Shown here: positions 1-36,675 of the stretch, in pieces
Position numbering within the stretch: position 1 is the first letter of the stretch
How the letters are laid out: each line of letters starts with the position of its first letter
From: Desulfovibrio cuneatus DSM 11391
GTDB taxonomy: Bacteria > Desulfobacterota > Desulfovibrionia > Desulfovibrionales > Desulfovibrionaceae
Length of the DNA: 36,683 bases
Direction of reading: 5' to 3'
Assembly (NCBI RefSeq): GCF_000430005.1
Contig: NZ_AUCY01000034.1
Coordinates: forward strand, 1-36,683
The notes under the pieces: generated by a model
What the model was told of the DNA's origin: nothing
Database searches by the model: none
Seen by the model: only the letters and a program-made list of their open reading frames with translations
Position numbers and translations under genes: made by a program

Positions 1-37
1 TTTGGAGGCGAGCCTTCCATTTCCTGATTTGATGTGT

Positions 38-150
38 CTTTTACCGTTTGGCGGCGTTACTTCACTTTTTCTGAAGCAGTCGAGGACGGAAGAGTTCACT
101 CCTGCTTCAGAAAAAGCTCGTGCCCAGCCAAACGAAAAACTCAGCGTTTG
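38..150 (+). repeat. Repeat A, copy 1 (left end decayed)
   Basis: This is a palindromic intergenic element of the A family. It has the inner terminal motif CCGTTTGGCGGCGTTAC near 44-60 and the opposite end GCCAAACGAAAAACTCAGCG at 127-146. Its centre is a perfect 15-bp stem, 65-79 paired with 102-116, closed by an inner GGAC/GTTC-type hairpin. The outer GGAAACGCT of the left end, seen in other copies, is not recognisable here. It touches repeat B copy 1 on its right. No gene overlaps it convincingly; an open frame through it is only a shadow of the palindrome. Confidence 0.8.
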
Positions 151-302
151 CTAGAGCATTTCAACGTTGAAATGCTCTGTGGACGCGCAGTGGACACTCG
201 CGAAGCGTGTCGTTTTATTTTATTATCACCTTGGGTTATGTTGAGTTGCCCATGTGTATTACGGAAAATGAATACAACTTTTCAAAATTAAGATGCTCTA
301 AG
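151..302 (+). repeat. Repeat B, copy 1
   Basis: This ~152-bp element shares its ends and much of its body with 10778-10930. Both begin CTAGAGCA, carry GTGGACGC, then GGACAC-CGCG-AGCGTGTCG and TTTTATT-TATTAT, and end near TTTTCAAA-TTAA-TGCT-TAGAG, which is an inverted version of the start. The first 26 bases after CT (153-178) form a perfect palindrome centred on ACGT. It has no coding potential that I trust, and the size and inverted ends suit a small non-autonomous mobile element. Confidence 0.75.
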
Positions 303-14079: not shown

Positions 14080-14355
14080 GGGAACGAAGTGCTGATTTAT
14101 TCCGTTTGGCGGTGTTACTTCACTCTTTCCGCCCTTGCTCACCTTTCTTCCGCTCCTGCGGCGGGGTATATGCTCCGGCGTGCGGGGCTGCCTACGTCCC
14201 GCCGTGTTGTTCCACGGCTCGCTCCGCTCGCGACTGCCGTCTCCCTTTCTCCGCTGTGACTGCTGCCGGGGTTAGGGTCGCAAGAGAAGGCAGAAGAGTC
14301 AACTCCATCTGTCAAAAAATGCGTGCCGGGTCAAACATAACAACTGAGAGTTTCT
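14080..14355 (+). repeat. Repeat A copy 2 with repeat C sequence nested inside
   Basis: The left edge (GTGCTGATTTATTCCGTTTGGCGGTGTTACTTCAC, read in halves from 14089) and right edge (GTCAAAAAATGCGTGCC, then GTCAAACATAACAACTGAGAGTTTC ending 14353) are those of repeat A. The middle holds a repeat C core, CCACGGCT-GCT-GCTCGCGACTGCCGTC, at 14212-14241. At ~276 bp it is twice the normal A length, so C seems to have entered an A element, or both arose from a larger parent. It covers the start of the gap before the adhesin. Confidence 0.65.
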
Positions 14356-14700
14356 CAGCTACCTTTACATGAGTGCTTTTTTAAACTCCCCCCACGCTGG
14401 GGGGTTGTACATGTTGGCATATAAAGCGTTTTTTTGAGTAACTGGCCTCGAGCTGTGTGTTGTTTTAGCAAAAATCTTTTGTTCCACAGGTAGTTGCGCA
14501 TGTGAGCAGATGAATGCTGTGAAGAAAAATATTTTTTGGCATAGTGCGAAGAAATTTGTATATAGCAAGAATAAATTGCTGGCAAATAGGTAGCATCTTC
14601 AAGTGATTGTATTTTTTAATGTAGCTTTTATATATCAGATTGAATAGTAGGTTTTGCACGTAACTCGTTGAATGCTTTTACAGTTTATTCATAAGAGTGA

Positions 14701-18000: not shown

Positions 18001-21000
18001 ATTTCCATAGTGCGGCAGGTGAAATTACCTATACCCTGGGAAATGGCACTACCGTTGCCCTTACCCTTGGTGCAGACGCTGTTCTGCGTGACGCTAACGG
18101 CCAGAACTACGGCAAGCTTACCCTGAACGAAGCAGATGGCAGCTACACCTATACAGTGCCAGGCAAAGGGCAGAGCGTTGTAGAACTGGATGGCACCATC
18201 AAGGTGGGCTATACTCTTAAAGATGCTGATAACGATACAGCCAATGCAACCCTGAGCATTACGGTGAAAGGCGAAGACCTGAAGCCGGAAATTAGTATTG
18301 ACGCTGGGGCAAGCAACCTGAATGTGGATGAAGCCGCCCTTGATAGCATAGGCACCAATGCCGCTTCCAATGCCGAACACGCCAGTGGTTCTCTTGCCGT
18401 AAGTTCTTATGAACAGCTCACTACCATTAATGTGGGCGGCGTTGTACTTACCCTGAACTACGGTGCCGATGGCAAGTTGGCTGGCTATAGCGTGAACGGC
18501 ACTGCGGAAAACGTGCCCAATGGCGATTTGACCATTGCGGCTACCGATGCTGTTTCCGTTACGTACGCCGCGGACGGCAAGGCAACCTACACTGTTGAGT
18601 ACTCCTATACCCTGACAGCCCCCCGCACGTTTGACGGAGACTTCGACACAATTTCTGTGCCTGTAACGGTTACGGATAAAACAGGTGACGTGGCCAATGC
18701 CAACTTCACCATTACTGTGCAGGACGACGCCCTTACGGCTGCTCCCGACACCAACACCTTTACCGAAGGCAGCCAAACATCTGTCAGTGGTAACGTGGTA
18801 ACGGGTGAAGGGCAAACAGGCGGTAAAGACACCATTGGCGCAGACGGTCTGAAAGACGTGCAGTTTCACGGCCTGACCGTCACTTCTGGCAGCCTTGTGG
18901 ACAATAACAATGGCACCTACACATACCAGAATGCTGATGGAACAACCGCCGGAACGTTGACCCTGAAAGCCGATGGTAGCTACACGTTTGAAAAAACGGG
19001 TGGCATTCAAAACAGCTTTACCTTGGAATGCAAGTATGCCGCCACAGACAATGATGGCGACAGGGCTGAATCGACCTTGACCATAAACGTGGAGGCCGCA
19101 CCCATTACTGTTGGGCTCAGCGGTTCCGCACAAGCGTATGAAAGTAACGCAAACAATACCCAAGGTGCAGGGGAATACACCCTGAATATATATGATGAGA
19201 GCAATGGTATTGCTACAGGTGGGCAGATTCCCGACGATATTACTGTGACCATCAAAGTAACGTTGGATTCTGCAAAACTGGAAGACTTTGACCAAGCCGC
19301 ACTGGAAACGCTTGATGGCTACACAGTACAGTACGACAACCATGGCAAGGCTGTCAGTTTTACCTTTACCCAAACTATTTCCCATGGCGATGCCGACGGC
19401 AAATTGACCTTCAATCTGCCCTTTAATGACGACCACATTACAGAAAATACCGAAACGTATACCGTTTCCATTGAAAAGGTGGAAGGTGGCACAGGTGTGT
19501 ATGTTTCAGAAAAAGCAGATGCCAGCACTGTAGATACCACCCTTATTGATGACGGTTCCACGGCTCACCCTAAAGACGGTCCTGTAGTCAACGTGGTGCG
19601 CACAGACGGCACAGGCAACTCTTGGGAAGGGGCACAGGATTCTTCCTTTGAATTTAAGCTGGACCTGAAAGACCCGCACACTGGCAGCACTTACGCTGGG
19701 GACAGTGACGGGTTTATGGCGCAAGACACAGTTGTTACTATCACCCTTGGCGGCAGTGCACAGCTTGGCACCGACTTTACCCTGGATACCTCTGCTTTTG
19801 ATAACATCCCAGGGCTGAGCTATGAGGTGAAAGACAATACGATTATCTTTACCATTACCGGGCAAGTGGATGCCAACGGCAACCTGCATGCCCCCGGCAC
19901 TGCTGTCTTTAATGTGAGCGACCTTGGCAAGTTGACCTTCCAGGCCAATGTTATTTCCGACGCCATGGCAGAAAACGCAGAAGCCATTACCCTGAACGTG
20001 ACTACTGACGGTGGCAACGAAAGCGCCAACGGTTCCGGTTCTTCCGTCACCATAGAATCTGACCCGAAATTGTCCCTTGCCTGGGCCGCTGGTTCGGTGA
20101 ACGAAAGCCAGGGCAACATTACTGCCAGCCTGACCCTTGATAAACCCCTTGGCGAAGACGTGACCGTGACCCTGAAACTGGGCGGTACTGCACAGGTGTA
20201 TCAGGAAGGCGACACCCTTGCCCTGAAAGACTACACCCTGCCCGAGGGCTGGAAACTGGAGTCTGACGGCAACGGTGGCTTTAACTTGGTGGGCACCATC
20301 AAGGCGGGCACTTCCGGCACTATTCCGCTGGAGTTCGGGCTTGTTGACGATCATATCAGTGAAAGTAATGAAAGCATTACCCTGCAACTGGATAATGCCA
20401 CTTATGCGGGCGGCCAAAGCAACGTCACCATTGGCACAACGGGCACCCAAACCGTTACCATAACCGACGACAACGCCATTCCCAATAGCGATGGCGCTTC
20501 CAGCACCAACGAAAAAGATGGCCCTGTGGTGGGCATAAAAATGGATGGGGCCAGCAGTGCAGCGGAAAATTCCGGCACCACCTTCACCTTCCAGGTAACG
20601 CTTACAGACCCGCACGCACGGGCCAATGAATACTCTGGCTTTGAAGACAACAACACCCTTTCGCAAGACATGGTGTTAACCTTGCAAGTGGGCGGCGCGG
20701 CTACCCTGGGCAAGGACTATACCCTGGACTTTACAAGCCTGAACGAATTGAAGGCCGCGGGTGTGCTTACTTACACAGCCGATGCCAATGGTAAAATTAC
20801 CATTACCCTGCACGGGCAGGTAGATGCCAGCGGCAACCCTTCCGGGCATACGCCGTTCAACATGGCAGACCTAGACAAGTTGCAGGTGGGTGCCACCATC
20901 AGTAACGACATGGTAACGGAAAAGAATAGTGAATCCATTACCATGAACGTCATCACTGACGGCAAGAACGAAAGCACCGGAGGTGGCACTGCCACGGCCA

Positions 21001-24000
21001 CCATTGAAGGGGATACGCCTGTTCAATACAACGGCCCCTTTGTGGAGTTTGGCAAGGCCAATTACGGCAGTGTGCAGGAAAGCAACGGCAAGCTTAACTT
21101 TACCCTTGAACTGCGCGACCCTGCCGATAAAACACAGCCATATAGTGGCACCGGGCTGGAGCAGGATATTGTTGCCACCATCAAGGTTGACTTTACCGAG
21201 ACCTTCCAGGCCCATGACCTGAAGTTTTACACCCAGTCTGGCAACTCATTTACTGCCAAGCAACTGGACACCGCCAGTTTGCGCAGTGCCGGGCCGCTGT
21301 TTGTGAACATTGGCGACCCGGACGGCGACGGCAACGACAACTACGCGCCCATTACCTTGCAACCCGCCACGGGCACTCCCACAGGCTTTACCTTTGATGC
21401 AAAGCTGCCTGTTGGGCCTGCTGGCGATGCAGACGGCAAGTATGACCTGAGCCTTGAAATGAACGACGACCCGTTCGGCGCAAGCGAACAGCAAAAGTTT
21501 GACAAGCCAGATGAAAGCATCAAAATGGAAATAGTAGGGGTGGAAGGCAGCGAAGCCCGTATTGGGGACGTTGCCAACACAGAAGGGACGGTGACAGACG
21601 ACGTACCGGAAATGGCGGAAACAGGCGGCCTGGAAGGGCTGAAAGTGGGTCTGCACCTTGCCACTACCAGCGGTACTCCGTATACCAATGCGGAAGTGAA
21701 CGAGGGGCTGGATTACAGGCTGTATGTGGACCTTACCACCCAGAATGGCACCGCTTTTGGCACAGGCAACAACCCCTATGCTAACTACACGGGCAACCAG
21801 GTGCTGCCGGAAGACCTGGTTATTACCATTACGCTGGAAGGCACCGCTGACCTGGGCGACGACTTTACCGTAAGCTGGAACTTGCCAGCAGGTGCCGAGG
21901 TGAGTGGCCCCAATGCCAATGGGGAATACACCCTAACCTTGAAGGGCGGCATCTTTAATGCCGCCGATGCAGGCAAGGTGTGGGCCAACATTGATGTGAA
22001 GGGCGATAACATTAACGAACACGGCAATGCCAACCAGTACCTTGACGACAAAGCCGCAGACGAGAAATTCTCCTTTACCGTAACCGACGTAAAGGGCAAC
22101 GAAAGCAGCATTACAGATAAAGCGGGTGCACACACAACGGAACGCACTATTAACGACGTGGCCGACGGCAAGCTCACCCTTTCTGGTGGTACCTTTGATA
22201 CCACCCACACAGAATGGGGCTTTGGCCTGAAGGTTGGCTATGGCGCAACCGAAGGCAACGGTGGCAACCAGTTGCCCGGTGAAACAGTGCACATGCAACT
22301 GAAAGTGAGCGACAGCGTCAGTATGCAGCACGGTGAAGAATACCGGCTGGATGCTTACAGCCTGTTCTGTTCTCTCAACGCTGGTGATGCCGACCTGCAA
22401 GGCTTCCTCAACGCCAACGGCATTACCGACCTTGCTACTTACAATGCCTGGGTAAATGGCAACGACCTTTCCGCCGCTGCCGGGGACAAGGGCCTGATTT
22501 TTGTGGATGGAGACGATGCTGGCTGGGCCAAAGGCGACAGTATCGTATACGATGTGTATGTGCCGAAAGATTCATGGAAGGCTGATGGCTCGTTAACGTT
22601 CAGCGTTGACCAGGGCGACCACCACGGCGGGCGCGATGATGCGGGCTTTACTGTGGAACTGGTCAACCCGTACGATAAAAACGGCGACGGCGTGAGCGAT
22701 GCAGGCCAGCCGGGCTTTGACATGAAGGGCGAGATTGTGCAGGTGGTGAACCCCAGTGATGTGGCGGTTTCCGACGCCATACAGGTGAGCCTTTCCAACG
22801 GGCATACCATTAGGGAAGGTGGCACCGAGGGCATTGGCGGCACGGCGGTGGAGCAATACACCGTGCAGTTTGCTAATGCCAACGCTGCAACAGTTGGTGG
22901 TACCTGGAAGGCCGCAGGCGACGTTATGTTCGACCTGACCATTAAGCCCACAGGCGCTGAGTTTGACAGCAATACAAGCGATAATATTGGCAATGGCACA
23001 GTAAAAGACTTTGCTCTGGCAGATTTTGAAGGCAAGCCCCTTGATATGGGCAATGGCACCTACGACCTTTCCACGATAGATACGCCTGAAGAGTTCGCCC
23101 TGCTGAGTCAGAAACTTTTTGGTGCTAATTACCCAAATATTCAGGTGACAGGCATTACCTACAATGGCAATAACGTTGTGTTTGCTGTGAAGGTGGCCGA
23201 AGGCTACGACCTTTCCCAGGGCGTGAAGATAAACTTCATCACCGAAGATGACAGGGTTTCGGAACCGAGTGAAAACTTTGTTCTGACGGTTACCGACCTG
23301 CATAGCAACAAAGACCTTGATCTTTCCACCACCAAAAACAGTGGCACCACCACCATTGTGGATGAAGGTGATGTCACACGGTTGAACGGCTTTGCCCTTG
23401 CCCTGAAAGACGGGGGTGCAGTGGGCGTTGAAAAAAGCGAAACCGGGGTAAGCGTTACCGTAAAAGCCTACATTTTGAGCAATGGGGTGGACGGCACTGG
23501 CTGCAACGACGGGCAGGTAATTACCCTTGACGACATGAAGGCCCTGTACACTGCTGAAACAGGCAACAGTTACTCCGGTGCCAATGATGCCGACTTCGAG
23601 AAATTTGTTATTGACCACTTTGGGCCTACCCAACCCATTACCTTGGATTTTGGTTTTAGTGACGATTCTGCCGTACGCAATGCAGATTACAGAACGGACC
23701 AAACGTCATTCACCCGTGGGCCGGGCGGCTGGACGCTGGTTATTGATGAAAACACAGGCGAAATTAGCTTTGAACGCAATGACATCAATATTACCACCAT
23801 TAACGACAACCTGGACGAAGGCACGGAACAGTTCGATATTACGCTGAATGGCGTTTCCAGCAACGAATCCCGCTTGGTGAATGGTGCAGATGGTGTGACC
23901 GAAAACACCACCGTCAAGGCCGATATTATTGACGTGCACGACGGCCCTGTGCTGGAAGGCTTTGGTTTGAATGACGAGTCACTGGTGGAGCCAGACCGTT

Positions 24001-27000
24001 ACGATGTGGTGGATGGACAGCGCCTGCACACGGTGGAATACATTTTGAATTTGAGCAAGGCCACTGCTGAACCTGTCACCGTGTGGCTGGATGCTGGCGG
24101 TGCCGCTTCACTGGGTATCGACTACTCTTTTGGTGAAGGGGTATATACCTACCAGAACGGTAGCTGGCATACCTTTACGGCAACGGGCGAACTGGTTGCC
24201 AGCAACGCTCCCGCAGGCTTCAGGGGCGAGCCGAAAGAAGGCGGCTTCTGCATTGTTATTGATGAAGGGCAGTCCAGCGGCACCGTGAACGTGGTGGTAC
24301 TGCACGACAACGACGAAAAGGCCGTGGCAGAAGGTGTGGACAACGGCACGGAGAACATCAACCTGACTGTAACCGACATGACGGGCAGTGAAGTGATGTA
24401 CAAAGATCCGGCCACAGGAGAAGTGAAGCCCTGGGCAGACAAGCCTGCTGGCTTGATCGTGGACGAAGGCAAGTCTGACCTGAACATTATAGATGATATG
24501 GAAGGCCCAGCCATTTCCGTTGGCCTTGGCGGCGACTACAATGCACGAACAATAACGCTACACATTGGTGAAGATGCCACCGCTCCCATTACCGAGCCTG
24601 TAACGGTAAAATTGCAGGTAACAGATCAACTCGGTAACTCCCACGAGGTAAGCATTACCGTGCAACCGGCAGACCTGCATGACGCAAGCCTGACGGATGC
24701 CGTGAACAAGGCCCTGGCTGACCAGAAAATTAACATAAATAACTGCTATGTGCAGATAATAGATACCACTGGCGGGGAAACGCAGGTTTCCGGCGGGCCA
24801 GTGTATGTGAACAATGATAGCGGCCCGGCGATTATTGAAATTAAGGGCTTTGAGGGCAATACCATTACCGAAGGTGATGGGGAGAGCCCTGAATACACCA
24901 TGAATCTGCTTATTTCGCAGCCAGATAAATTGCCAAACACCCTTAGTTTTGATTTGGAACACCTTGGTGGCACGGCAAGCCTGAGTGGCGATTTGGCAAA
25001 TACTGGTGGCGCCCATGTGGAAATTACCAATATAGACGCCCTGAAAGCTGCCGGGACGGATGTTACCCTTACTATCAATAAAGATGGCGTGTTCCTGCAA
25101 GATGGAACACAAATTGGTACGGTTACGGGTGACCTGCCTGTGGCACTGGATGATACCAGCGTGGAAGGTACAGAAAGCTTTTATACCATTATTACCAACC
25201 CCAGTTCCCCGCTGGATATTGACGAAGGTGTGGCAACCGTTGAGGTTATAGATACCACCAGGGTCGGGATTGTGCTGGTGAAAGAAGACGGCACCCTGTT
25301 TACCGGCACCACAGAAGACGCAGGCCTGCTTAACCTGAAGGCCATGCTTGTGATTGTGGACCCCCAGGGCAACCCTGTGCTTGTAAATGGCGAGTTTGTA
25401 CAGGCCACCACGGAGGTGCCCATTTCCTTCAAGGTGGGGTACACCAATGCAGAAGGCACAACAGGTGGGCAGGGGGCAGACTTTACTGGCAATAATGTAA
25501 TTACCTTCCCGGTAGGTTCAGGTACGGTAGACTTTAATCTGATGATTCAGGAAGACCGCCTTTCAGAAGGTACAGAAAAGTTTGATGTTTCCTTTGAACT
25601 GACAGACAAGAGCAAGACCGAGCTTGGGGGCAGTGCCCAAAATAATATTGTTGGTGGCAAACAAGGGTTTACCATTACGGATGAAGACACCTCCCTGCAA
25701 ATTGGCTTTACGTCCGATAGTTCGGTAAGTGAAGCTGACACCCTGACGGTAACCTACTTTGCTGAGGAAACCATGAGTGGCGCTGCCTTGCCCCAGGGTG
25801 GGCAAGCAGGCGGGGTGAACAAGTCTGTTGTGGCGGAAGACGTGACCATTACCTACGTCATTACGCCAAAAAGCGCAGGCTTTGACCTGAATGATATCAA
25901 GAGCATGACAGTTAATGGTAAAACATACACGCACGACGGCCCTGCTGGGGCTAACCTGAGCGACCTGTTGACGGCAGACGGCAACGGTGGATGGGAATTC
26001 AAGGTTACCCTGAACAAGGGTGTGGCCTATGGTGAGTTTAAAATCACCTTGAATAACGATGTGCTGACAGAGGGCTCCGAACAGTTTGGCCTGGCCATTA
26101 AGGAAACAAGCGGCAGCGAAAGTCTGGTTGGGCCGGGCAGCGACAAAACCATCAACGTGGAAGACGTGCTGGACGGTGCCCGCCTGGGCATTGTGGCAGG
26201 CCCAATGGCTGAAGAAGGTGACTACGCCACGGCAACCATCAAAATGACGGCAGGCATGGCTTCTGAAGAGCCTTCCACCATTACCCTGACGGTGAAAGAC
26301 GGCAACAGCAGTAACCTGAGTGACAAGTTCGACACCAATGGCGTCATTAAAGTAAACGGCTTTGGCGGCGAAGCAACCATAGATTTGAAAAATGCCCAAA
26401 ACGGCATTGCCACAGGCCAAATTACGGCCGCTGGCAAAACGTATGACCTGAAGTTTGACCTGAACACAGGCAAGCTGACCATTGATATGCCAGCAGGTGT
26501 TGGTAACACGTCGCAAGACATCACAGTTTCCTTCCCTGTGCAAGACAGCAGTGTCGCGGGCGATTCCGGCAGCTTCACCTTTGGGCTGGAAGTAAACGGT
26601 GGGGAAATGCAGTTGGCTGGCTCCAACCCACCAAACTATCAGGCAGGTGAATGGACTGGTGAATTCAGCGCCGAGGGCACAAGCAACGGCGGTTCCAACA
26701 CCTTCAAGATAGCGGCGACTGGCGGGTCAAGCTTTAACGACCTGACAGAAACCACTGAAACTGTGCTTACCTTGGGCAACCTGCGGGCAAGTGGGAGCAG
26801 CGTTGACCTGGTGCAAAAAATTATTGTGGACGGGGTGGAAATACCCAGGAGTGCATGGTCTTGGGATGGGCAGAATGTGGTTATTCACACAGGCTCTTGT
26901 AAGCCAAATTACGAAGTAACGCTTGTGTACAATACCGTGGGTGTGAACCCGGCAGACCTTTCCTACGCCAAGGGCAACGTGGACCTTTCTGCCAGTGTTG

Positions 27001-29684
27001 TTGGCTACGGCAGGGAAGTGGTTACCCAAATTGGGGATGAAACCGACAAAACCCAGTTTGACGGGCCGGAAGCTTCTTTGGTGAATGTGGCCGAAAGCGT
27101 GGTGGAAGGCAGCGTGGTGGAAGGCGATGTGCGCGTGCACTTCCCCATGCTGGATGGCGACCTGAACCCGGACGGCACCCACACCACAGTGGAGAACCTG
27201 AACGTTACCTTGCAATTGTCCAAAAATATCAACGGCACATACTCAAGTACCGTTGAGTTTGGTGGCAACAGCTATGTAGTGAACCAAACCACCGGGCAGG
27301 TAACGGTTTCTATTCCCAAGGGAACATTGGTAGATGCTGATGGTAACCTGGACATTCACTTTACGGTGACAGTGCCAGATAACACGGTGACCAAGAACCC
27401 GAACTTCTCTATTACGGTTGTAGACCTGAAGGGCGACACAGGTTCTGACACACATTATGAAAAGTATAGCAAGGACAGTACGGCAGAAACTGTGACTGTG
27501 ACAGATAACGACACAGACAGTGGGCCAACGGTTTCACTTGGTTCCAATGGTGCTGGTACGGAAGGGGGCAAGTACTACACGTACTTGTCCATCCAAAACC
27601 CTTCGGGTAAAGATACTATCGGTACTACTGTAGAGGCCATGCGAGTGACAATACAAGTTGGGCAAAACCCTGATGGTACGTATTCTGCCCCGGCAAACTG
27701 CAGCAGCAATGCCACAATCAAAGATTGGAATCCGGAAACCGGGCAATTTGTGTTGGAGATTATGCCAGGTACTTCTTTTAGTCCTACCTCAACATGGTTC
27801 TATATGAACACGGCGGATAACAGCCTGGCCAGCAACCCGCCGGCAACCTTGACTATTATCAATGTTGAAGGGGCTGGTAGCGGCAATACATACGAAACCA
27901 TTATCCATAGCGATGAAACTAAATCTGTTACTCTTGGCAATAATGGCACCCCTTCCGGCCCAGAGTTTACGTTAACGGTAGACCAGACCAGCGTGAATGA
28001 AGGAACGGATCTTGCGGGTACGCTCAAGCTGGCCTTTACGGCTGACAAGGCCAACCCGAACACCCTTGGCACCGATGTAACGGTAAACCTGACTCTGAAT
28101 AACGCCAATGCCACGTTTACTTTGAGCCAGGCCGCGCTGGACGCCGGGGTTACTTGCACGCAGAACGGGGCTAAGGTCACCATTATCTTCCCTAATGGCA
28201 GCAGCATGGCCGACTTTGCAGACGGCCTGGACTACAGCATTAACGTGCCAAAAGACGAAATGAAAGGCCAGAACCTGGAAATTACCGTTGATTCTGTTAC
28301 CCAGTCTTCCAACTACTACGAAAAAGTGGGCAATGTGGGTGACAGCCAGTTCGAGGTGCCCGTTATTCCGGTAACAGACCAGCCCACGGACCAAAGTGTG
28401 GCTCCTGGCCAGCTTGTGGAACAGGATGGGCACGTGGCCAGCGTTAGCTTTACCCTGGCTGCGGATTTTGCAGACAAATCAGGTACGGAAGAGCACTTCT
28501 TTCTGGTAGCCTTGCCTGCAGGGGCCATTCCCCCGGCCGGGTGGGTTGCCATAACCGACCTTGCACTACTGCAAGCCGCAGGCCTGGGGGACAAGGTGTA
28601 CAAGGTACCTGCCGACGCACAGGGTGACGCTTCCTTTGACTTACAGGTGCCCGAACACTTTGCAGGTGGCGACTTGCAGTTCAGGGCCGGGGCTGTGGAA
28701 ACAGGGCAAAACCAACCGACCTATGAAGTGAGTGAAATTGGCAGTAGTAGCATTGCTCCCACCGGAATTATTAACCTTGTGCCGGAAGCCCAGGCGAGCC
28801 TTGGTGCGCTGGACGGGGACCTTCCTTATTTTGATGGTTCCCTGGCTGTGCAAGACCCGGATGGCGATTCCTGGCAGGTGGTGTCTGTTTCCGTTGGCGA
28901 CCAAGTCCACTTGGTTCCGGAAAATGGTTTCAAGACCATTGAAGGGGAACACGGCACGCTGACACTGCATGCCGATGGCACCTACCATTATGAGTTGCAC
29001 GAAGGGGAGGTGGCCACAGACATTAATGACATGGAAAGCTTTGGCTACACCGTGCGCGACAGCCACGGCGGTGAAAGCACCAGTTCCATTGACATTACCC
29101 TTGGCCAACCGGCAGATGGTGACGCGCTCACGCCCATGGCTGCCAACGCTGCCTTTACCTTAGCAGGAGACCATTTAGAAGGGGTGTTTGCAGACCAGGC
29201 CTTGTATGACAACACCAGCCACCAAAGCGCTGCGGATACTGCCGGGGAACAACACCTGTGGTTTGACTCCCCCAACGGGGAAGATACCTTGCTCAACGAT
29301 TGTGCAGGGGAGCATCTCCTGCTTGGGCAGGCAAAAATGGCAGAAGACGGAACCTATGTGCACGGGTTTGTATACGAAGGGGCAGAACCCCTTAACATTC
29401 AAGTGACAGACGACAACAATCAGGTACTCAGCCTGCATGACGTGTTGTTTACCGATGAAGAATCTGCCCTGGATACCTACCTGGAAGCCATGGTCAACAA
29501 CAACGACATTACGTTGATAGTGCAGACAGGAAACACGGAACACACCATTATTATTGAAATGGGTGCCGGTGCCGTGGCCGGGTATGAAAACTATACTTCC
29601 TTTGTGGAACAATACAATGTGGCAGAAAGCGAAGAGGCCCAGTCTGCTATGGTGCATCAGTTGCTTACCTCCATTACCTGCTAG
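15060..29684 (+). CDS. Giant LapA-like type I secreted adhesin
   Basis: A 4874-aa acidic protein with no Sec signal. Residues 1-110 form a retention module of the LapA kind (Val/Thr-rich beta strands, LDNGGKVTITDFF), with the cleavage motif TAAG at 105-108, almost the position known from LapA (107-110). A Gly/Ser/Pro linker follows. Next come a domain ending VDAVADKPT (~171-305), a DESHF/GWV-type domain (~305-478), a T1SS-143-like repeat ending DDGPTA (~478-660), a tandem 285-aa duplication (~657-1225), a shorter VCBS-like unit (to ~1347), then about 16 Calx-beta-like units (acidic D-x-x-x-E-x-x-E signatures) to ~4437. A second GWV-type domain (~4438-4564), a cadherin/VCBS-like domain with DPDGDSW (~4566-4684) and a C-terminus with LHDVLFTDEESALDTYL complete it. 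Canonical GGxGxD repeats are absent. Expected role: calcium-dependent attachment and biofilm, held in an outer-membrane TolC-like pore and released by a LapG-type protease. The transporter, lapD and lapG are not here. Confidence 0.9.
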   Translation: MSQTNGKQAANSSPVVVPGVQANQEISIPAVAGAEVQFQFDPTSATVTRVDNSLVFTLDNGGKVTITDFFVTDGQPLPMLALPDGQVVPSEAVLAGLNGDMDLSTAAGPAARPPSSGGTSYEDSAGSLIGGTDRLGSLGTDGWGNSLSQPEQGIGTLEVPGGTFSFDASSDVGGAFGVSGGLYEDGMAYQNTGDTTVASGKLDFSFSGTGTTVVDSVSLTGLPVGTVVYIGNPDNPTQTITIETAGQAVSLTYSQLTGDGVYLLPPPNSDADMNINASVTLRATSSGVTQTLNGSFTIVVDAVADKPTEVEAAFVGGVDQTAIGNTLAGKEEQQVTIKAKAVFGGDADGADTDESHFVMVSGVPSDWSLASIPQGWVQVTDAARLAAMGAGAGDVVFEVSADLLQGANASVEGDVTFDTNEWSSERLGSGAVNTAGNATLTVKGVTWEENPSDGELTQDNNIATTSSQDMTVHFEESKPVITSQDLVLPVDETAGLQQQDKAVTALTPEAQAVLAGLGLGSTPAVAATQNDVTFSLGTDVTTPELGEGSRGIALSSEQTDPVYTASGQLLTIETVDGVLQGYYMEGGTKHLAFVVFSSDHNFAGGTGKLTFVQYEALRHADANNPDDVLPINVQITVTDADGDSVTTSLTITVHDDGPTAIAESEMLGEHDTSVSGNVLGNDQFGADGRAATNGLDFNTEAGKITYTLGDGTTVALTLDAEGFLRDAFNQNYGKLTLNEADGSYTYTVPGKSLNALEMDGTIKVDYTLKDADNDTASATLSITVKGEDLKPEVIINAGANNLLVDEAALDTIGTNAAANAEHASGSLDVSSYEQLTTITVGGVVLTLKYDASGTLSGYDVDASGENVPNGDLAIAASGAVSVAYAADGKATYTVTYSYTLTDPRTVDTDADTITVPVTVTDKTGDEANGNFTITIKDDAPIASNESVALDTTSSSETSVPGNVLDNDQFGADGRATTDGLDFHSAAGEITYTLGNGTTVALTLGADAVLRDANGQNYGKLTLNEADGSYTYTVPGKGQSVVELDGTIKVGYTLKDADNDTANATLSITVKGEDLKPEISIDAGASNLNVDEAALDSIGTNAASNAEHASGSLAVSSYEQLTTINVGGVVLTLNYGADGKLAGYSVNGTAENVPNGDLTIAATDAVSVTYAADGKATYTVEYSYTLTAPRTFDGDFDTISVPVTVTDKTGDVANANFTITVQDDALTAAPDTNTFTEGSQTSVSGNVVTGEGQTGGKDTIGADGLKDVQFHGLTVTSGSLVDNNNGTYTYQNADGTTAGTLTLKADGSYTFEKTGGIQNSFTLECKYAATDNDGDRAESTLTINVEAAPITVGLSGSAQAYESNANNTQGAGEYTLNIYDESNGIATGGQIPDDITVTIKVTLDSAKLEDFDQAALETLDGYTVQYDNHGKAVSFTFTQTISHGDADGKLTFNLPFNDDHITENTETYTVSIEKVEGGTGVYVSEKADASTVDTTLIDDGSTAHPKDGPVVNVVRTDGTGNSWEGAQDSSFEFKLDLKDPHTGSTYAGDSDGFMAQDTVVTITLGGSAQLGTDFTLDTSAFDNIPGLSYEVKDNTIIFTITGQVDANGNLHAPGTAVFNVSDLGKLTFQANVISDAMAENAEAITLNVTTDGGNESANGSGSSVTIESDPKLSLAWAAGSVNESQGNITASLTLDKPLGEDVTVTLKLGGTAQVYQEGDTLALKDYTLPEGWKLESDGNGGFNLVGTIKAGTSGTIPLEFGLVDDHISESNESITLQLDNATYAGGQSNVTIGTTGTQTVTITDDNAIPNSDGASSTNEKDGPVVGIKMDGASSAAENSGTTFTFQVTLTDPHARANEYSGFEDNNTLSQDMVLTLQVGGAATLGKDYTLDFTSLNELKAAGVLTYTADANGKITITLHGQVDASGNPSGHTPFNMADLDKLQVGATISNDMVTEKNSESITMNVITDGKNESTGGGTATATIEGDTPVQYNGPFVEFGKANYGSVQESNGKLNFTLELRDPADKTQPYSGTGLEQDIVATIKVDFTETFQAHDLKFYTQSGNSFTAKQLDTASLRSAGPLFVNIGDPDGDGNDNYAPITLQPATGTPTGFTFDAKLPVGPAGDADGKYDLSLEMNDDPFGASEQQKFDKPDESIKMEIVGVEGSEARIGDVANTEGTVTDDVPEMAETGGLEGLKVGLHLATTSGTPYTNAEVNEGLDYRLYVDLTTQNGTAFGTGNNPYANYTGNQVLPEDLVITITLEGTADLGDDFTVSWNLPAGAEVSGPNANGEYTLTLKGGIFNAADAGKVWANIDVKGDNINEHGNANQYLDDKAADEKFSFTVTDVKGNESSITDKAGAHTTERTINDVADGKLTLSGGTFDTTHTEWGFGLKVGYGATEGNGGNQLPGETVHMQLKVSDSVSMQHGEEYRLDAYSLFCSLNAGDADLQGFLNANGITDLATYNAWVNGNDLSAAAGDKGLIFVDGDDAGWAKGDSIVYDVYVPKDSWKADGSLTFSVDQGDHHGGRDDAGFTVELVNPYDKNGDGVSDAGQPGFDMKGEIVQVVNPSDVAVSDAIQVSLSNGHTIREGGTEGIGGTAVEQYTVQFANANAATVGGTWKAAGDVMFDLTIKPTGAEFDSNTSDNIGNGTVKDFALADFEGKPLDMGNGTYDLSTIDTPEEFALLSQKLFGANYPNIQVTGITYNGNNVVFAVKVAEGYDLSQGVKINFITEDDRVSEPSENFVLTVTDLHSNKDLDLSTTKNSGTTTIVDEGDVTRLNGFALALKDGGAVGVEKSETGVSVTVKAYILSNGVDGTGCNDGQVITLDDMKALYTAETGNSYSGANDADFEKFVIDHFGPTQPITLDFGFSDDSAVRNADYRTDQTSFTRGPGGWTLVIDENTGEISFERNDINITTINDNLDEGTEQFDITLNGVSSNESRLVNGADGVTENTTVKADIIDVHDGPVLEGFGLNDESLVEPDRYDVVDGQRLHTVEYILNLSKATAEPVTVWLDAGGAASLGIDYSFGEGVYTYQNGSWHTFTATGELVASNAPAGFRGEPKEGGFCIVIDEGQSSGTVNVVVLHDNDEKAVAEGVDNGTENINLTVTDMTGSEVMYKDPATGEVKPWADKPAGLIVDEGKSDLNIIDDMEGPAISVGLGGDYNARTITLHIGEDATAPITEPVTVKLQVTDQLGNSHEVSITVQPADLHDASLTDAVNKALADQKININNCYVQIIDTTGGETQVSGGPVYVNNDSGPAIIEIKGFEGNTITEGDGESPEYTMNLLISQPDKLPNTLSFDLEHLGGTASLSGDLANTGGAHVEITNIDALKAAGTDVTLTINKDGVFLQDGTQIGTVTGDLPVALDDTSVEGTESFYTIITNPSSPLDIDEGVATVEVIDTTRVGIVLVKEDGTLFTGTTEDAGLLNLKAMLVIVDPQGNPVLVNGEFVQATTEVPISFKVGYTNAEGTTGGQGADFTGNNVITFPVGSGTVDFNLMIQEDRLSEGTEKFDVSFELTDKSKTELGGSAQNNIVGGKQGFTITDEDTSLQIGFTSDSSVSEADTLTVTYFAEETMSGAALPQGGQAGGVNKSVVAEDVTITYVITPKSAGFDLNDIKSMTVNGKTYTHDGPAGANLSDLLTADGNGGWEFKVTLNKGVAYGEFKITLNNDVLTEGSEQFGLAIKETSGSESLVGPGSDKTINVEDVLDGARLGIVAGPMAEEGDYATATIKMTAGMASEEPSTITLTVKDGNSSNLSDKFDTNGVIKVNGFGGEATIDLKNAQNGIATGQITAAGKTYDLKFDLNTGKLTIDMPAGVGNTSQDITVSFPVQDSSVAGDSGSFTFGLEVNGGEMQLAGSNPPNYQAGEWTGEFSAEGTSNGGSNTFKIAATGGSSFNDLTETTETVLTLGNLRASGSSVDLVQKIIVDGVEIPRSAWSWDGQNVVIHTGSCKPNYEVTLVYNTVGVNPADLSYAKGNVDLSASVVGYGREVVTQIGDETDKTQFDGPEASLVNVAESVVEGSVVEGDVRVHFPMLDGDLNPDGTHTTVENLNVTLQLSKNINGTYSSTVEFGGNSYVVNQTTGQVTVSIPKGTLVDADGNLDIHFTVTVPDNTVTKNPNFSITVVDLKGDTGSDTHYEKYSKDSTAETVTVTDNDTDSGPTVSLGSNGAGTEGGKYYTYLSIQNPSGKDTIGTTVEAMRVTIQVGQNPDGTYSAPANCSSNATIKDWNPETGQFVLEIMPGTSFSPTSTWFYMNTADNSLASNPPATLTIINVEGAGSGNTYETIIHSDETKSVTLGNNGTPSGPEFTLTVDQTSVNEGTDLAGTLKLAFTADKANPNTLGTDVTVNLTLNNANATFTLSQAALDAGVTCTQNGAKVTIIFPNGSSMADFADGLDYSINVPKDEMKGQNLEITVDSVTQSSNYYEKVGNVGDSQFEVPVIPVTDQPTDQSVAPGQLVEQDGHVASVSFTLAADFADKSGTEEHFFLVALPAGAIPPAGWVAITDLALLQAAGLGDKVYKVPADAQGDASFDLQVPEHFAGGDLQFRAGAVETGQNQPTYEVSEIGSSSIAPTGIINLVPEAQASLGALDGDLPYFDGSLAVQDPDGDSWQVVSVSVGDQVHLVPENGFKTIEGEHGTLTLHADGTYHYELHEGEVATDINDMESFGYTVRDSHGGESTSSIDITLGQPADGDALTPMAANAAFTLAGDHLEGVFADQALYDNTSHQSAADTAGEQHLWFDSPNGEDTLLNDCAGEHLLLGQAKMAEDGTYVHGFVYEGAEPLNIQVTDDNNQVLSLHDVLFTDEESALDTYLEAMVNNNDITLIVQTGNTEHTIIIEMGAGAVAGYENYTSFVEQYNVAESEEAQSAMVHQLLTSITC
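15372..15383 (+). other. TAAG protease site of the adhesin
   Basis: The codons ACC GCC GCA GGC encode Thr-Ala-Ala-Gly at residues 105-108, between the retention module and the linker. In LapA-type adhesins the LapG cysteine protease cuts between the two Ala when cyclic-di-GMP is low. The assignment rests on motif and position. Confidence 0.7.
17025..18735 (+). repeat. 855-bp in-frame tandem duplication in the adhesin
   Basis: The block from about 17025 to 17879 is repeated from 17880 to 18735. For example, ACGACCAGTTTGGCGCAGAC starts at 17101 and again at 17956, a period of exactly 855 bp (285 codons). The copies are similar but not identical, with scattered synonymous and some replacement changes, so the duplication is not very recent. 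Each copy holds a VCBS-like unit and a second beta-domain ending in a DD-A-P/L junction. Confidence 0.85.
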
Positions 29685-29811
29685 GGAAACACGCATTTAT
29701 TCCGTTTGACGGCGTTATTTGCATTTTTTGAAAGGGGGCAGGACCAAAGAGTCCAGCCCGCCTTTCAAAAAATACTTCATGCCTTGCCAAACGAAATAAC
29801 TGCGCGTTTCC
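29685..29811 (+). repeat. Repeat A, copy 3, directly after the adhesin stop
   Basis: It begins at the base after the TAG stop. The ends are GGAAACACGCATTTATTCCG and the inverse of GGAAACGCGCAGTTATTTCG. The core stem is 29723-29735 with 29761-29773 (13 bp, perfect), followed inward by GGGC/GCCC and GGAC/GTCC around a CAAAGA loop. As a long hairpin just behind the gene it may serve as its terminator or protect the 3' end. Confidence 0.85.
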
Positions 29812-29979
29812 TTTCTCCGTTCGGGTTTCGTGGAGATGTGCGAGGTGGCAAAGCCACCTCGCACCCTCAGCCCTCGCTCCACGGCTGCTATGCTCGCGAC
29901 TGCCGTCGGCTTTAGGGAAGATGTGGGCTCAAAAGCTTGAAAAGCTAGCGCCTTGCCAAACGAAATAACTGCGTCCTTA
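29812..29979 (+). repeat. Repeat C, copy 2, plus an isolated right end of repeat A
   Basis: 29812-29920 is repeat C in + orientation, with a perfect 12-bp hairpin, 29838-29849 with 29853-29864 (loop AAA). It runs on to GCCTTGCCAAACGAAATAAC at 29950-29969, a second copy of the right edge of repeat A. This arrangement (A, C, A-end) looks like C inserted with duplication of the A edge. Confidence 0.65.
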
Positions 29980-30018
29980 GAGGAATTATGAGGGAGCAGC
30001 GATTTTACTCAACGCATT

Positions 30019-30067
30019 AATAAGAGCCCCCCTTGCACATTACTGATATGCAAGGGGGGCTCTTATT
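30019..30067. terminator. Strong bidirectional terminator between adhesin and mltA
   Basis: A perfect 19-bp stem, 30019-30037 with 30049-30067 and an 11-base loop, has a run of six G-C pairs. T-rich bases follow on the + strand (TTATTAGTTTTC) and an A/T-rich flank on the other side. It separates two convergent genes. Confidence 0.88.
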
Positions 30068-30093
30068 AGTTTTCTACAGGGAAGGGGGGCGTG

Positions 30094-31901: not shown

Positions 31902-32342
31902 CTGGCGGCGTGGTGGCGTTTTTTTTGAAACCGGGAATTCATGGTTTCTTGCGGCGTGCCGCCGCACACTCTCCCTCACCATCATATAACTACTCTATTA
32001 GAAACGCTCAGTTTTTCGTTTGGCAAGGCGCGATGTTATTTTTGCAAGGGCGGGCTGGACTCTTTGGTCTTGCCCCCCTTCAAAAATAGCAAGCAACGCC
32101 GCCAAACGGAATAACTGAGCGTTTCTAAAAAACAAAAACGCCACCTCTCCGTCCCTGGATCAGCAGCGTTTATGGGGTAAGTAACCCGTCTGTCATGGTC
32201 GCTCCAGCGCATTCGCCTGGCTAAGGGTTCGCAAATTCCTTTTTGCTCTCCGCTTTTTCAATTTTGATCCAACCCTTCTCTGACTTCCTGGCCTCTCGCG
32301 CCAGCTTGAGGCCAGGAAATCTACGGAGGGGGGGGATCATGT
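31902..32342. other. Gene-free stretch between the thioesterase and TPR genes
   Basis: It holds repeat A copy 4 (31998-32128) and an 11-bp hairpin, 32285-32295 with 32308-32318, with no T-run. Nothing else in it can be named. The two flanking genes converge on it. Confidence 0.5.
31998..32128 (-). repeat. Repeat A, copy 4 (reverse orientation)
   Basis: The ends are a perfect 16-bp inverted repeat, TTAGAAACGCTCAGTT at 31998-32013 and its complement at 32113-32128, extending with few changes through CGTTTGGC. Read on the minus strand the core (TATTTTTGAAGG to CC-CTTGCAAAAATA around GACC-AAAGA-GTCC) matches copy 3 in plan, with one bulged base. It lies between two converging genes. Confidence 0.85.
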
Positions 32343-32376
32343 GGCAAAATCAGGCAAGCCTGTTTTGCCTTTTTTT
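32343..32376 (+). terminator. Rho-independent terminator on the + strand
   Basis: GGCAAAA (32343-32349) and CAGGC (32351-32355) pair with GCCTG (32358-32362) and TTTTGCC (32363-32369), with one bulged T, and seven T follow. It would stop transcription from ybgC before it runs into the TPR gene, whose stop codon it touches. Confidence 0.7.
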
Positions 32377-32935
32377 ACGCCGCAAAGTGGGCGTAAAGTT
32401 GTTGGGCAGCGATATTCTCTGGGTGTTCACCCAAAAGAAGTTCTAACTGAGCCCGAGATTCTTTTTCGCGACCAAGGGAAAGCAAGCAACCTGCCAATGC
32501 GTAGCGAATGGCTTCATCGCTTCGTTCCTGAAGGGCAGCTTCCAGCATGGGAACAGCTTCTTCAAGGCGATTCAGGAAGTAGCAAAGCTGCACAATGCCG
32601 TTAATGGCAACCATATTGCAGCTGTTGTAAGAAAGTGCCTGGGAATAGTGGGTAAAGGCTGTTTCGTATTCGCCTTTTTCCACTTCCACCATGGCCATGC
32701 CAGACAATGTTTTGTCGCTTTGGCACACGGTATTTGCTTTGGTGTACAGGGAGTAAGCCTGTTCCAGGTTGCCCCGGTCCAGTTCAATGGCTGCCAGGCC
32801 AAGGTAAGGTTCTGGCTTGCTTTTGTCGCAGCTCACGGCCTTCAGGTAATAGTCTTGGGCTTTTTCGTATTCACCCATAAACAAATAGCATTCACCCAAT
32901 TCTTTGTTAATTTCGTAATCTACTTGATTGCTCAT
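32375..32935 (-). CDS. Five-TPR protein of the sigma-54 regulon
   Basis: A 186-aa protein made almost only of tetratricopeptide repeats, about residues 8-40, 42-74, 75-107, 109-141 and 142-174 (for instance GECYLFMGEYEKAQDYYLKA). It has no signal peptide or membrane helix, so it is probably a cytosolic protein-binding scaffold. ATG 32935 is chosen because AAGGAGGGG lies right before it. A longer frame to 33103 has a Lys-rich, non-TPR start and passes through the promoter. A consensus sigma-54 promoter lies 85 bp upstream, back to back with that of flgB, so control with flagellar genes is likely. The partner is unknown. An export chaperone or assembly factor is one guess. Confidence 0.8.
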   Translation of the reverse strand: MSNQVDYEINKELGECYLFMGEYEKAQDYYLKAVSCDKSKPEPYLGLAAIELDRGNLEQAYSLYTKANTVCQSDKTLSGMAMVEVEKGEYETAFTHYSQALSYNSCNMVAINGIVQLCYFLNRLEEAVPMLEAALQERSDEAIRYALAGCLLSLGREKESRAQLELLLGEHPENIAAQQLYAHFAA

Positions 32936-33019
32936 AATCCCCTCCTTGTTGTGCGCTGTTGTGCGCATTTTGCCTGCTTCATAAAGTTTATTGGCGCGAG
33001 CAAGCTTGCCAAAGCTTAT

Positions 33020-33034
33020 GCAACCCGTGTGCCA
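33020..33034 (-). promoter_or_regulatory. Sigma-54 promoter of the TPR gene
   Basis: On the minus strand the bases read TGGCAC-ACGGG-TTGC, a full match to the -24/-12 consensus. Transcription should begin near 33008, giving a leader of about 73 bases. It lies 231 bp from the flgB promoter, in divergent orientation, so the two could share an upstream activator. Confidence 0.8.
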
Positions 33035-33265
33035 TTTTTTCTTTTTGTGCGAAGTTTTGTTGTAACTATGGTAAATTGTTAATAATAATTTTTTCTTGGG
33101 CATTGGCGTGTCCTGTTGTCAGGCGGCAGTTTTTGCTTTTCCTGTCATTTTTCCTTCTTTGCTGCCCCCTTCCTTATAAAGGGCGTATTCAAAATTATGA
33201 CAAGTAACGGTGTGGGGGTATGGCTTTAGTGCTTAATGCACTGTAAATAAACAATAAATTAATTT

Positions 33266-33280
33266 TGGTACGCTTGTTGC
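33266..33280 (+). promoter_or_regulatory. Sigma-54 promoter of flgB-flgC-fliE-fliF
   Basis: The bases read TGGTAC-GCTTG-TTGC, one change from TGGCAC and otherwise consensus with correct spacing, followed by TTAA. Transcription should start near 33292, 53 bases before the flgB ATG. The region from 33060 to 33260 is AT-rich and could hold the activator sites, though I cannot name them. Confidence 0.8.
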
Positions 33281-33344
33281 TTAATGCTGGCAAAGCAGAT
33301 GGGAAAAAAATTCCCACATAACTTTACCTTAAGGAGGAAACGGT

Positions 33345-33755
33345 ATGAAAAGCCTTTTTGGTTCACACATTGAACTGACCAGCCGGGTGCTGGATATGCA
33401 GTTGCAACGGCAGAACATGATTAACGGGAACATTGCCAACATCAAAACAGAAGGCTACCGCCCCCGCAAGGTGGAGTTTGAAAAAGAATTGCAATCAGCC
33501 CTTGGGCTGGACGTGCGCGGCAAAATGAGCCGTACCCAGGAAGGGCACATGCCTTCTGTGTTCGACGCCAACACCTTTTCCGCGAATGCTGAAAAAGCGT
33601 TCAAGCCGCGCATTATTTACGGTGAAGACCGTGTGAGCATTGATAAAGAAATGGCAGAAATGGCAAAAACCCAACTGCAATATAGTGCCCTTTCCCAGGT
33701 TATTCGCAGTAACTTTGAAGGGCTGAAAACCGTCATCGCAGAAGGACAAAAATAA
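33345..33755 (+). CDS. flgB: Flagellar proximal rod protein FlgB
   Basis: A 136-aa rod protein, normal FlgB length, exported by the flagellar apparatus with no signal peptide. The rod-family motif is near the N-terminus (NMINGNIANIKTEGYRPRKV, with NIAN replacing the common NLAN). The C-terminal helix (KTQLQYSALSQVIRSNFEGL) is the coiled-coil half that packs in the rod. AAGGAGG lies before the ATG. The stop overlaps the flgC start as TAATG. Confidence 0.95.
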   Translation: MKSLFGSHIELTSRVLDMQLQRQNMINGNIANIKTEGYRPRKVEFEKELQSALGLDVRGKMSRTQEGHMPSVFDANTFSANAEKAFKPRIIYGEDRVSIDKEMAEMAKTQLQYSALSQVIRSNFEGLKTVIAEGQK

Positions 33756-34192
33756 TGGACTTCATGACCGCACTTGACGTGAGCGCTTCTGCTCTTTCGG
33801 CAGAGCGTACCCACATGAATATAATTTCCATGAACCTGGCCAATGCCAAAACCACCCGCACGGCGGAAGGTGGCCCTTACAGGCGCCGCAGCGTGTATAT
33901 GCAAGAAACTGAGGTGGATACACCCTTTAGCAAGCAAATGCGCAGCGCCATGGACAGAGAGTTGAAAGGCGTGCGTGTGCAAGGCATTGCGGTGGACCAG
34001 CGCCCCCCCAAACTGGTGTTTGAGCCAGGCCACCCAGACGCCAATGAAGACGGTTATGTGGCTTACCCGGACATTAACGTGGTGGAAGAAATGGCTGCCA
34101 TGATGACCGCCCAACGTGGCTATGAAGCCAACGTGGCCACCATTGAAACCGTTAAATCCATGTATACCAAAGCCCTTGATATTGGGCGTTAA
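33755..34192 (+). CDS. flgC: Flagellar proximal rod protein FlgC
   Basis: A 145-aa rod protein. The N-terminal helix DVSASALSAERTHMNIISMN contains the rod motif region (MNLANAKTTRT), and the C-terminus (NVVEEMAAMMTAQRGYEANV, then LDIGR) is the typical FlgC end. It overlaps flgB by one base, which supports coupled translation. A repeat A element begins at the base after the TAA stop. Confidence 0.95.
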   Translation: MDFMTALDVSASALSAERTHMNIISMNLANAKTTRTAEGGPYRRRSVYMQETEVDTPFSKQMRSAMDRELKGVRVQGIAVDQRPPKLVFEPGHPDANEDGYVAYPDINVVEEMAAMMTAQRGYEANVATIETVKSMYTKALDIGR

Positions 34193-34318
34193 GGAAACGC
34201 TGATTTATTCCGTTTGGCGGCGTTCCTGCACTTTTTCTGAAACAGTCGAGGACGGAAGAGTCCACTCCTGCTTCACAAAAAGCTTGTGCCTTGCCAAACA
34301 AAACAACTGAGCGTTTCC
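34193..34318 (+). repeat. Repeat A, copy 5, between flgC and fliE
   Basis: It starts directly after the flgC stop with GGAAACGCTGATTTATTCCG and ends with the inverse of GGAAACGCTCAGTTG-TTTG. The core pairs CTTTTTCTGAAACAG with CTGCTTCACAAAAAG (13 of 15 bases). It stands inside what should be one operon, so transcription must cross it for fliE and fliF to be made from the flgB promoter. Confidence 0.88.
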
Positions 34319-34379
34319 AAGATGCTATGGAATCAGTGCTTTGAAAATTTTCTGACTTTTGCAAATAAAGGAGCATACC

Positions 34380-34709
34380 ATGAGTATTCAATCTGTGGGC
34401 TTAAAGGCCTATAATCAGGCCCTTGAAAACTTCCAGCGTGCCCAGCGTGCCTCCAAGGCTTCAGCACTTACCCCTGCGGCACAGCCAACAAACAATTTTG
34501 CCGAAACCCTGAACAGTTCCCTTGGCAAGGTAAACAACCTGCAAACCGAACGCACCGCCATGATAGAGTCCTTCGCTTCTGGTGAAAACCAGAACGTGCA
34601 TGAACTGATGATTGCCATGCAAAAGGCCAGCGTTGCCGTAAGCATGACATCTGCTGTGCGGAACAAGGTTATTGAAGCGTATCGTGAACTTTCTCGCACC
34701 CAATTCTAG
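34380..34709 (+). CDS. fliE: Flagellar MS-ring/rod adaptor FliE
   Basis: A 109-aa protein, the usual FliE size, joining the MS ring to the rod. The family helix features are NNFAETLNSSLGKVNNLQTE and NVHELMIAMQKASVAVSMTS, followed by a conserved C-terminal helix (VRNKVIEAYRELSR). ATG 34380 is chosen, with AAAGGAG 7 bases upstream. An ATG at 34359 would add seven residues and lose that ribosome site. A short repeat A copy starts at the base after the stop. Confidence 0.93.
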   Translation: MSIQSVGLKAYNQALENFQRAQRASKASALTPAAQPTNNFAETLNSSLGKVNNLQTERTAMIESFASGENQNVHELMIAMQKASVAVSMTSAVRNKVIEAYRELSRTQF

Positions 34710-34764
34710 GGAAACGCTGATTTATTCCGTTTTGCCTAGCTAAACGAAAAAATGCAGCGCTTCA
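34710..34764 (+). repeat. Repeat A, copy 6 (short, core deleted)
   Basis: Only the two ends remain: GGAAACGCTGATTTATTCCG, then TTTTGCC-TAGC-TAAACGAAAAAATGCAGCGC-TTC. The whole middle of the ~127-bp form is missing, leaving ~55 bp that can fold as one hairpin. It begins directly after the fliE stop. Confidence 0.8.
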
Positions 34765-36579: not shown

Positions 36580-36675
36580 GCTGCGTGCATTGGGTAGATA
36601 CACGCAGCGTGACATGGAACAAAGGCTACTTCGCAAGAAGTAGCCTTTGTTATTTGTGCAGCATAGCTGCACAAA
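36580..36675 (+). terminator. Three tandem hairpins after fliF
   Basis: In a row: GCTGCGTG (36580-36587) with CACGCAGC (36601-36608). Then a perfect 15-bp stem, 36618-36632 with 36637-36651, closed by a GCAA tetraloop. Then a perfect 10-bp stem, 36653-36662 with 36666-36675, loop ATA. The middle one resembles a terminator with a poor T-run (TTTGTTATTT). They may weaken or process the transcript before the next gene. Confidence 0.55.

Follow-up and report, generated by a model that had tools for sequence, protein, structure and literature searches.

A hairpin-forming IS5-type MITE of Desulfovibrio cuneatus and its possible retention behind stop codons

Introduction

YPAL, a miniature inverted-repeat transposable element (MITE) of 3' untranslated regions in Yersinia, inserts close behind stop codons and is reported or suspected to stabilise the mRNA, and the BOX elements of Streptococcus pneumoniae are modular in structure. 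Here we describe a dispersed palindromic repeat of Desulfovibrio cuneatus DSM 11391 (family Desulfovibrionaceae, class Desulfovibrionia), six copies of which lie in the 36,683 nucleotides of contig NZ_AUCY01000034.1, the whole stretch analysed and hereafter the window. Several other described systems bear comparison with it. The miniature insertions Ype (Yersinia) and Efa (Enterococcus) form RNA hairpins near gene 3' ends and are reported or suspected mRNA stabilisers (PMC1590033). Chunjie, a MITE of 178–235 bp in Geobacter uraniireducens, has been reported within an operon in a review that also lists the BOX elements (PMC10969869). Repetitive extragenic palindromes (REPs) measure 20–40 bp, carry a GTAG or CGTC tag (PMC3733652, PMC12306157), and can affect translation when they lie within 15 nt of a stop codon (PMC12306157). 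The duplication made by IS5 is reported as YTAR (PMC10359306).

Among the matches listed for literature on Desulfovibrio repeats, MITEs, IS5, and REP doublets forming hairpins (REPINs) with their REP-associated tyrosine transposases (RAYTs), no paper dealt with this family. We consider it probable that the window family is a non-autonomous IS5-type MITE of about 150 bp, that its interior comes from a wider hairpin superfamily, and that copies behind stop codons have been retained for a role in mRNA.

Results

The repeat had been noticed by inspection of the window's letters alone (the sequence-only reading), as a palindromic element of about 127 bp in six copies plus a lone right end. All of these exist (Table 1), and the end motif, at no more than 3 mismatches, returned 484 matches in the 3.36-Mb D. 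cuneatus genome versus 1 for the reversed control. The search for further copies that the reading had proposed yielded hundreds in this genome and, as described below, a superfamily beyond it. Reading of copy 4 bears out its perfect 16-bp terminal inverted repeat, which a repeat finder reports as 20 nt at 95%.

The size and edges stood in part. The 126-nt hairpin is real, but the right edge had been set 24–25 bp too short: the full element, of about 150 bp, consists of the hairpin plus 24–25 bp on its right. Full-length copies occur in Desulfovibrio sp. MES5, isolate Im510_bin30 and UBA930, where the element reaches 24–25 bp past the right arm, up to a second GG-type end; copies in these relatives extend to ...AATCAGTGCTTCC and measure 149–152 bp in 33 of the 34 with a recognisable outer end. 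At the corrected edges lies a 4-bp target duplication, YTAR, which had been missed, and declared not clearly present, because the right edge was placed too far in. The two 4-bp flanks match exactly in 17 of those 34 copies (shuffled mean 5.7, maximum 14; 2000 shuffles) and in 7 of 26 D. cuneatus copies (shuffled mean 1.2, maximum 6; 2000 shuffles), and with flanks of 2, 3, 5, 6 or 8 bp these edges give 0 or 1 matches. The outer end is recognisable in 26 of 72 D. cuneatus copies, taken from stretches picked around known copies, versus 34 of 45 in the relatives, consistent with greater age of the D. cuneatus population. The arms are unlike (left ..GGCGGCGTT, right ..GGCAAGGC, one of each per copy), so each copy has an orientation.

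Six RNA folds, one of them of the opposite strand, gave energies between -42.6 and -78 kcal/mol and z values between -3.5 and -12.4. An arm-swap test was positive in the D. cuneatus copies, a result that subfamilies alone could cause, and flat in the MES5-type group. Long forms of 179–320 bp with recurring inner modules (for example L144:2495, L137:4305 and window 14085–14355) account for 21 of the 72 D. cuneatus copies. Among the modules, the apical one spans about 78 bp, another of about 120 bp occurs in both orientations, and a third, located in the right arm, measures about 20 bp.

The reading had expected a mobile element to leave sites empty in relatives, and two of four copies compared in an ~80-kb region of genome G055 are missing from some of them. 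One is shared with G093 and absent from G094; another is shared with G094 and G093 and absent from G045 and G043. A third site is filled in G055 and G093, shortened in G094 and unclear in the two other genomes, and the fourth copy could not be placed.

A candidate mobiliser was found on a viral contig (L166), in a 1263-bp insertion sequence (IS) whose ends are GGAAACACTGATTAA and GGAAGCACTGATTAA and which TTAG flanks on either side. Its transposase belongs to the IS5 family (NF033581) and has matches in 33 of the 288 genomes of the host family. Within a returned subset of these matches (30 transposase loci), a MITE end adjoining YTAR was present at 14 of 16 loci with at least 50% identity, a group that includes L197 (56% identity over 62 aa, no end), and at 0 of 14 loci below 40%; for shuffled loci the count was 3 of 300. 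At L176, from the window's genus, both ends stand 1170 bp apart. A transposase gene flanked by the same ends, which the reading had suggested seeking, is thus found in related genomes. The hairpin core was not found in the viral IS or at 15 close-transposase loci (16 IS loci searched), which speaks against the MITE being a truncated version of these IS. An IS5-type transposase would be the mover, identified through ends and target rather than caught moving the element.

One half of the earlier classification as MITE or REPIN-like is upheld by the combination of terminal repeats, the 4-bp duplication, sites both filled and empty, copies in the hundreds and matching IS5-family ends; the REPIN-like half is taken up below. 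The evidence that the window family is an IS5-type MITE with ends YTAR/GGAAACGCTGATT ... AATCAGTGCTTCC/YTAR is strong.

Other sources were also considered. Transposases of the IS701 type target YTAR as well; their domain, PF13546, was found in 0 of 11 genomes. Among PF01609/PF13340 loci, L104–L112 were scanned for the ends and four for other inverted repeats, with L200–L208 left out; L107 and L108 have different ends of their own. Scans for viral patterns picked out five stretches, among them the one with the IS of L166, and one contig with hairpin copies. A 171-bp MES5 stretch had no match in plasmid or phage records.

The first covariance model gave weak matches in 44 of the 288 family genomes, and these have the inner motifs in common with the window family, but not the ends. 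In an alignment of 22 copies, scored with the structure derived from that very alignment, 33 pairs were paired in 95.2% of cells (shuffled 75.1), with 141 double-change cells (shuffled 40.7; 0/500). When 79 matches were fitted to the model itself, double-change cells numbered 544 versus 150 shuffled. The loops hold the most conserved letters, and the stems covary. Of the 348 genomes and 59 genera of the class, a later model (R2, E<=1e-4) found the hairpin in 112 and 22, respectively. With the threshold relaxed to E<=0.01 its matches numbered 98 in G027, 125 in G042, 59 in G118 and 40 in G036, some places being counted on both strands. Since few candidates were scored per genome (12 with the first model, 150 in the four-genome count, 10 in the class survey), copy numbers are lower bounds and absences soft. 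Rfam had no match in the window at gathering score and, at six loci of diverse copies (E<=0.5), none on the element, its matches falling only elsewhere in L098. As a pattern, the evidence is strong that the hairpin core belongs to a class-wide superfamily that is mobile in some families. At G050:C1:14623-15204 onward (L274), at least five hairpin copies stand head to tail with a 152-bp period.

The same core also carries other terminal repeats. Eighteen copies fetched from G042 have an identical core and the ends YTA/GGGCCTGTTAACGC...GTTAACAGACCC/TAR, with G after the left TA and C before the right TA in 18 of 18 and, at either end, an unaltered TA in 17 of 18; this fits a TA target and not a 4-bp duplication. 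A transposase for these TA-type ends was not found; a solitary end resembling them lies at L177:2086. G042-like ends, with 2–4 mismatches, flank copies in the D. cuneatus genome (L137:7772-7896) and in UBA930 (L050), and further copies bear still other inverted ends. At the rpmI-rplT site of the g12 genomes, with flanks 97–99% identical, two groups have wholly different outer stems around a nearly identical core.

Three window copies begin right after a stop codon: those behind a 4874-aa open reading frame (ORF) (TAG), flgC (TAA) and fliE (TAG). In the D. cuneatus window family, 31 of 70 testable copies have an in-frame stop at the left end and 2 of 26 have one at the right end; the corresponding figures in relatives are 15 of 42 and 5 of 34. 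Among 58 window-family copies testable at both ends, 20 had the stop at the left and 7 at the right (p 0.019). In one test applied alike to all groups, with the coding frame set by codon-position G+C rather than by annotation, closeness of the arms to the stop was scored: the 5' arm gave 31/33 and the 3' arm 11/18 in D. cuneatus (p 0.006), and 17/19 and 11/18 in relatives (p 0.062). The stop counts of this test leave out sides scored 'none' or 'open' or with a short flank.

The pattern is sharper in 76 diverse copies of the superfamily, which are high-scoring matches from mostly four genomes. In the same test, 66 of the 76 have their 5' arm facing a stop, all within -6 to 26 nt, and 13 their 3' arm (7 of these within 40 nt); co-directional copies number 33 sense versus 2 antisense (p 3.7e-8), with some orthologous sites counted repeatedly (for example L101/L219/L292, L209/L234, L306/L308, L235/L311 and L086/L287). 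The outermost inverted repeat begins no more than 3 nt from the stop in 45 of 63. Diverged copies of the superfamily sit in sense behind stop codons, and as a pattern this is strong. Two genera have the hairpin at orthologous places in the rpmI-rplT gap and directly downstream of leuD; behind polA such a place is occupied in two genomes of a single genus. The sequence-only reading had named such shared sites as the mark of fixed regulatory structures; they are found in the wider superfamily at the first two places, and the window family has empty sites.

These counts bear on the alternative that the element is a plain MITE without function, placed behind stops by its TA-containing target and by loss of insertions within genes. 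YTAR and TA targets, together with TAR stops, do account for the adjacency and for the choice of stop: at elements we counted TAG 42, TAA 17 and TGA 7 (n=66), and away from elements TGA 33, TAG 28 and TAA 18 (n=79), a scarcity of TGA that is expected if stops served as TA targets. The young, identical G042 family shows no strand bias (6 versus 4), and purely selfish MITE families are common. A palindromic target would not orient an insertion, whereas the diverse copies are strongly biased both in the arm that faces the stop and in strand, and conserved loops between covarying stems are hard to square with an element free of function. We therefore think the plain MITE unlikely, and place moderate confidence in selection behind the sense-strand retention; the comparison of young with old copies draws on one identical family (G042) and the window families.

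It is less likely still that the element acts at the level of DNA, as a cruciform or in single-stranded DNA, with the complementarity of its arms kept by template switching. Pairing is almost strictly Watson-Crick, as this would predict: among 46 non-redundant copies, G-U makes up 49 of 1442 paired cells (shuffled mean 140), a share measured against shuffles rather than against other RNA families. The outer arms also vary among copies and yet match in cis, the outer 11 letters holding 0.34 and 0.43 bits per position versus 1.14 elsewhere and pairing at -11.2 kcal/mol versus -3.7 when swapped, with 43 of 46 copies beating the swapped mean. The strand bias behind stops points to transcription, however, and correction of arms leaves the conserved unpaired loops unexplained.

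A REPIN-like family spread by a RAYT is very improbable: size, hairpin shape and intergenic place would suit it, but the ends have a 4-bp duplication, no GTAG tag was seen, and in the D. cuneatus genome, which the RAYT search covered, the only Y1 transposase found (PF01797) belongs to one IS200-type element, present as ten fragments and bearing unrelated ends. This multicopy element lies at ten contig ends (L064–L073), where it probably breaks the assembly.

The window features are collected in Table 1. The long-form copy at 14085–14355 was missing from the matches of the covariance-model search of the window, which listed five copies. Copies 5 and 6 follow flgC and fliE in a same-strand flagellar gene cluster, flgB-flgC-fliE, and a hairpin between co-directional genes is therefore tolerated there. 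The first 480 residues of the 4874-aa ORF (15060–29684) have a weak, sub-threshold BapA_N match. A second small palindromic repeat (CTAGAGCATTTCAACGTTGAAATGCTCT-like) lies beside MITE copies, or is interrupted by them, at window 151–185 and at L071, L044, L054 and L056. Near-perfect, terminator-like inverted repeats with 23- and 15-bp arms occur at window 30018–30068 and 36618–36651.

Table 1. Repeat copies and adjoining stop codons in the window
Feature	Coordinates	Strand	Remarks
Copy 1	28..151	+	left end decayed; covariance model R1, 81.3 bits
Copy 2, long form: 271-bp core region (14085-14355) with additional inner sequence, and 25-bp right extension	14085..14380	+	end motifs at 14086 and 14330
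TAG stop codon of the 4874-aa ORF (15060-29684), within the left CTAG flank of copy 3	29682..29684	+	in-frame stop at left end
Copy 3, 126-nt hairpin	29685..29811	+	model R1, 127.7 bits
Sequence beyond copy 3 with second right arm (29955-29979, 5 mismatches), end ..GCGTCC adjoining TTAG	29812..29980	+	
Copy 4, 126-nt hairpin, outer right end unrecognisable	32000..32126	- (canonical strand)	model R1, 125.4 bits
TAA stop codon of flgC (ORF 33755-34192), within the left TTAA flank of copy 5	34190..34192	+	stop at left end
Copy 5, hairpin 34193-34318 and decayed 25-bp right extension	34193..34343	+	model R1, 120.5 bits
TAG stop codon of fliE (ORF 34359-34709), within the left CTAG flank of copy 6	34707..34709	+	
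Copy 6, core-deleted, both arms back to back	34710..34764	+	model R1, 42.8 bits

Discussion

In the explanation that we favour, IS5-type transposases would have moved the MITE in trans and since been lost from the D. cuneatus genome. Because TA is part of the target, TAA and TAG stops are frequent insertion sites, which leaves the gene intact and a hairpin starting at the stop. Insertion would first have occurred on either strand, and copies transcribed as a hairpin right behind the stop would then have been retained. Such a hairpin would most likely protect the 3' end of the mRNA, or adjust how the message of the upstream gene decays or is translated, while letting the operon continue; position, structure and precedent (Ype/Efa, REPs near stops, YPAL) suggest this role of protection or tuning.

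Several observations weigh against this explanation. An exact duplication is absent from half of the relatives' copies, and one flank has diverged at each empty site, so that these sites are not letter-perfect. L176 has unequal flanks (TTAA and TTAG) and a broken gene. The D. cuneatus genome (96% complete, 76 contigs) gave 0 matches to PF01609, PF13340, PF13546 and the close IS5 transposase, nor was the latter found in the MITE-richest genomes G000, G055, G093, G094, G045, G128, G119, G133 and G285; of the copy-rich genomes only G121 has it, and genomes that bear it hold few copies. Co-directional copies of the window family lack a clear strand bias (14 sense and 8 antisense in D. cuneatus; 6 and 8 in relatives).

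More tentatively, and with somewhat less than even confidence, we propose that one conserved chassis, a hairpin of about 100 nt, came to occur throughout the class by exchanging terminal repeats among unrelated transposon families (IS5-type with YTAR; TA-type with GGGCCTGTTAAC in G042; others), and that copies on either strand were sieved by selection into sense hairpins starting exactly at stops. Together these would amount to a layer of mRNA 3'-end elements across the genome. That one core bears different terminal repeats raises the question of how the interior of a MITE outlives its transposase.

Arguments that a transposon has turned into a regulator usually rest on single insertions. In this case one class holds hundreds of copies of a single structured core, some young and some old, some mobile and some fixed, so that the step from insertion on a random strand to sense-strand retention behind stops can be counted, and tested in cultivable Desulfovibrio. 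If the explanation holds, a high-copy structured element not previously described is added to annotation.

Compared with known systems, the element resembles the IS5 family in its end letters, its 4-bp YTAR duplication and the NF033581 transposase of elements with matching ends; unlike that family it is gene-free, and its core was not found in the IS loci searched. With Chunjie, compared by description and not by sequence, and with other MITEs it shares small size, lack of coding, intergenic position and variable length. Like REPs and REPINs it is a high-copy intergenic palindrome, but it differs in its length of about 125 nt and its IS5-type ends, and no RAYT was found in its own genome. Mutually nesting repeats and modular long forms recall BOX elements, a likeness by description between unrelated sequences. 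A parallel in placement is with YPAL, Ype and Efa: all are larger than REPs, lie close to gene 3' ends and fold into RNA hairpins, and the position behind stops of 66 of 76 diverse and 31 of 70 D. cuneatus copies is that of YPAL as generally described. The differences are that sequences and hosts are other ones, that strand bias here is strong only in diverged copies, and that one core is borne across a class by several terminal repeats.

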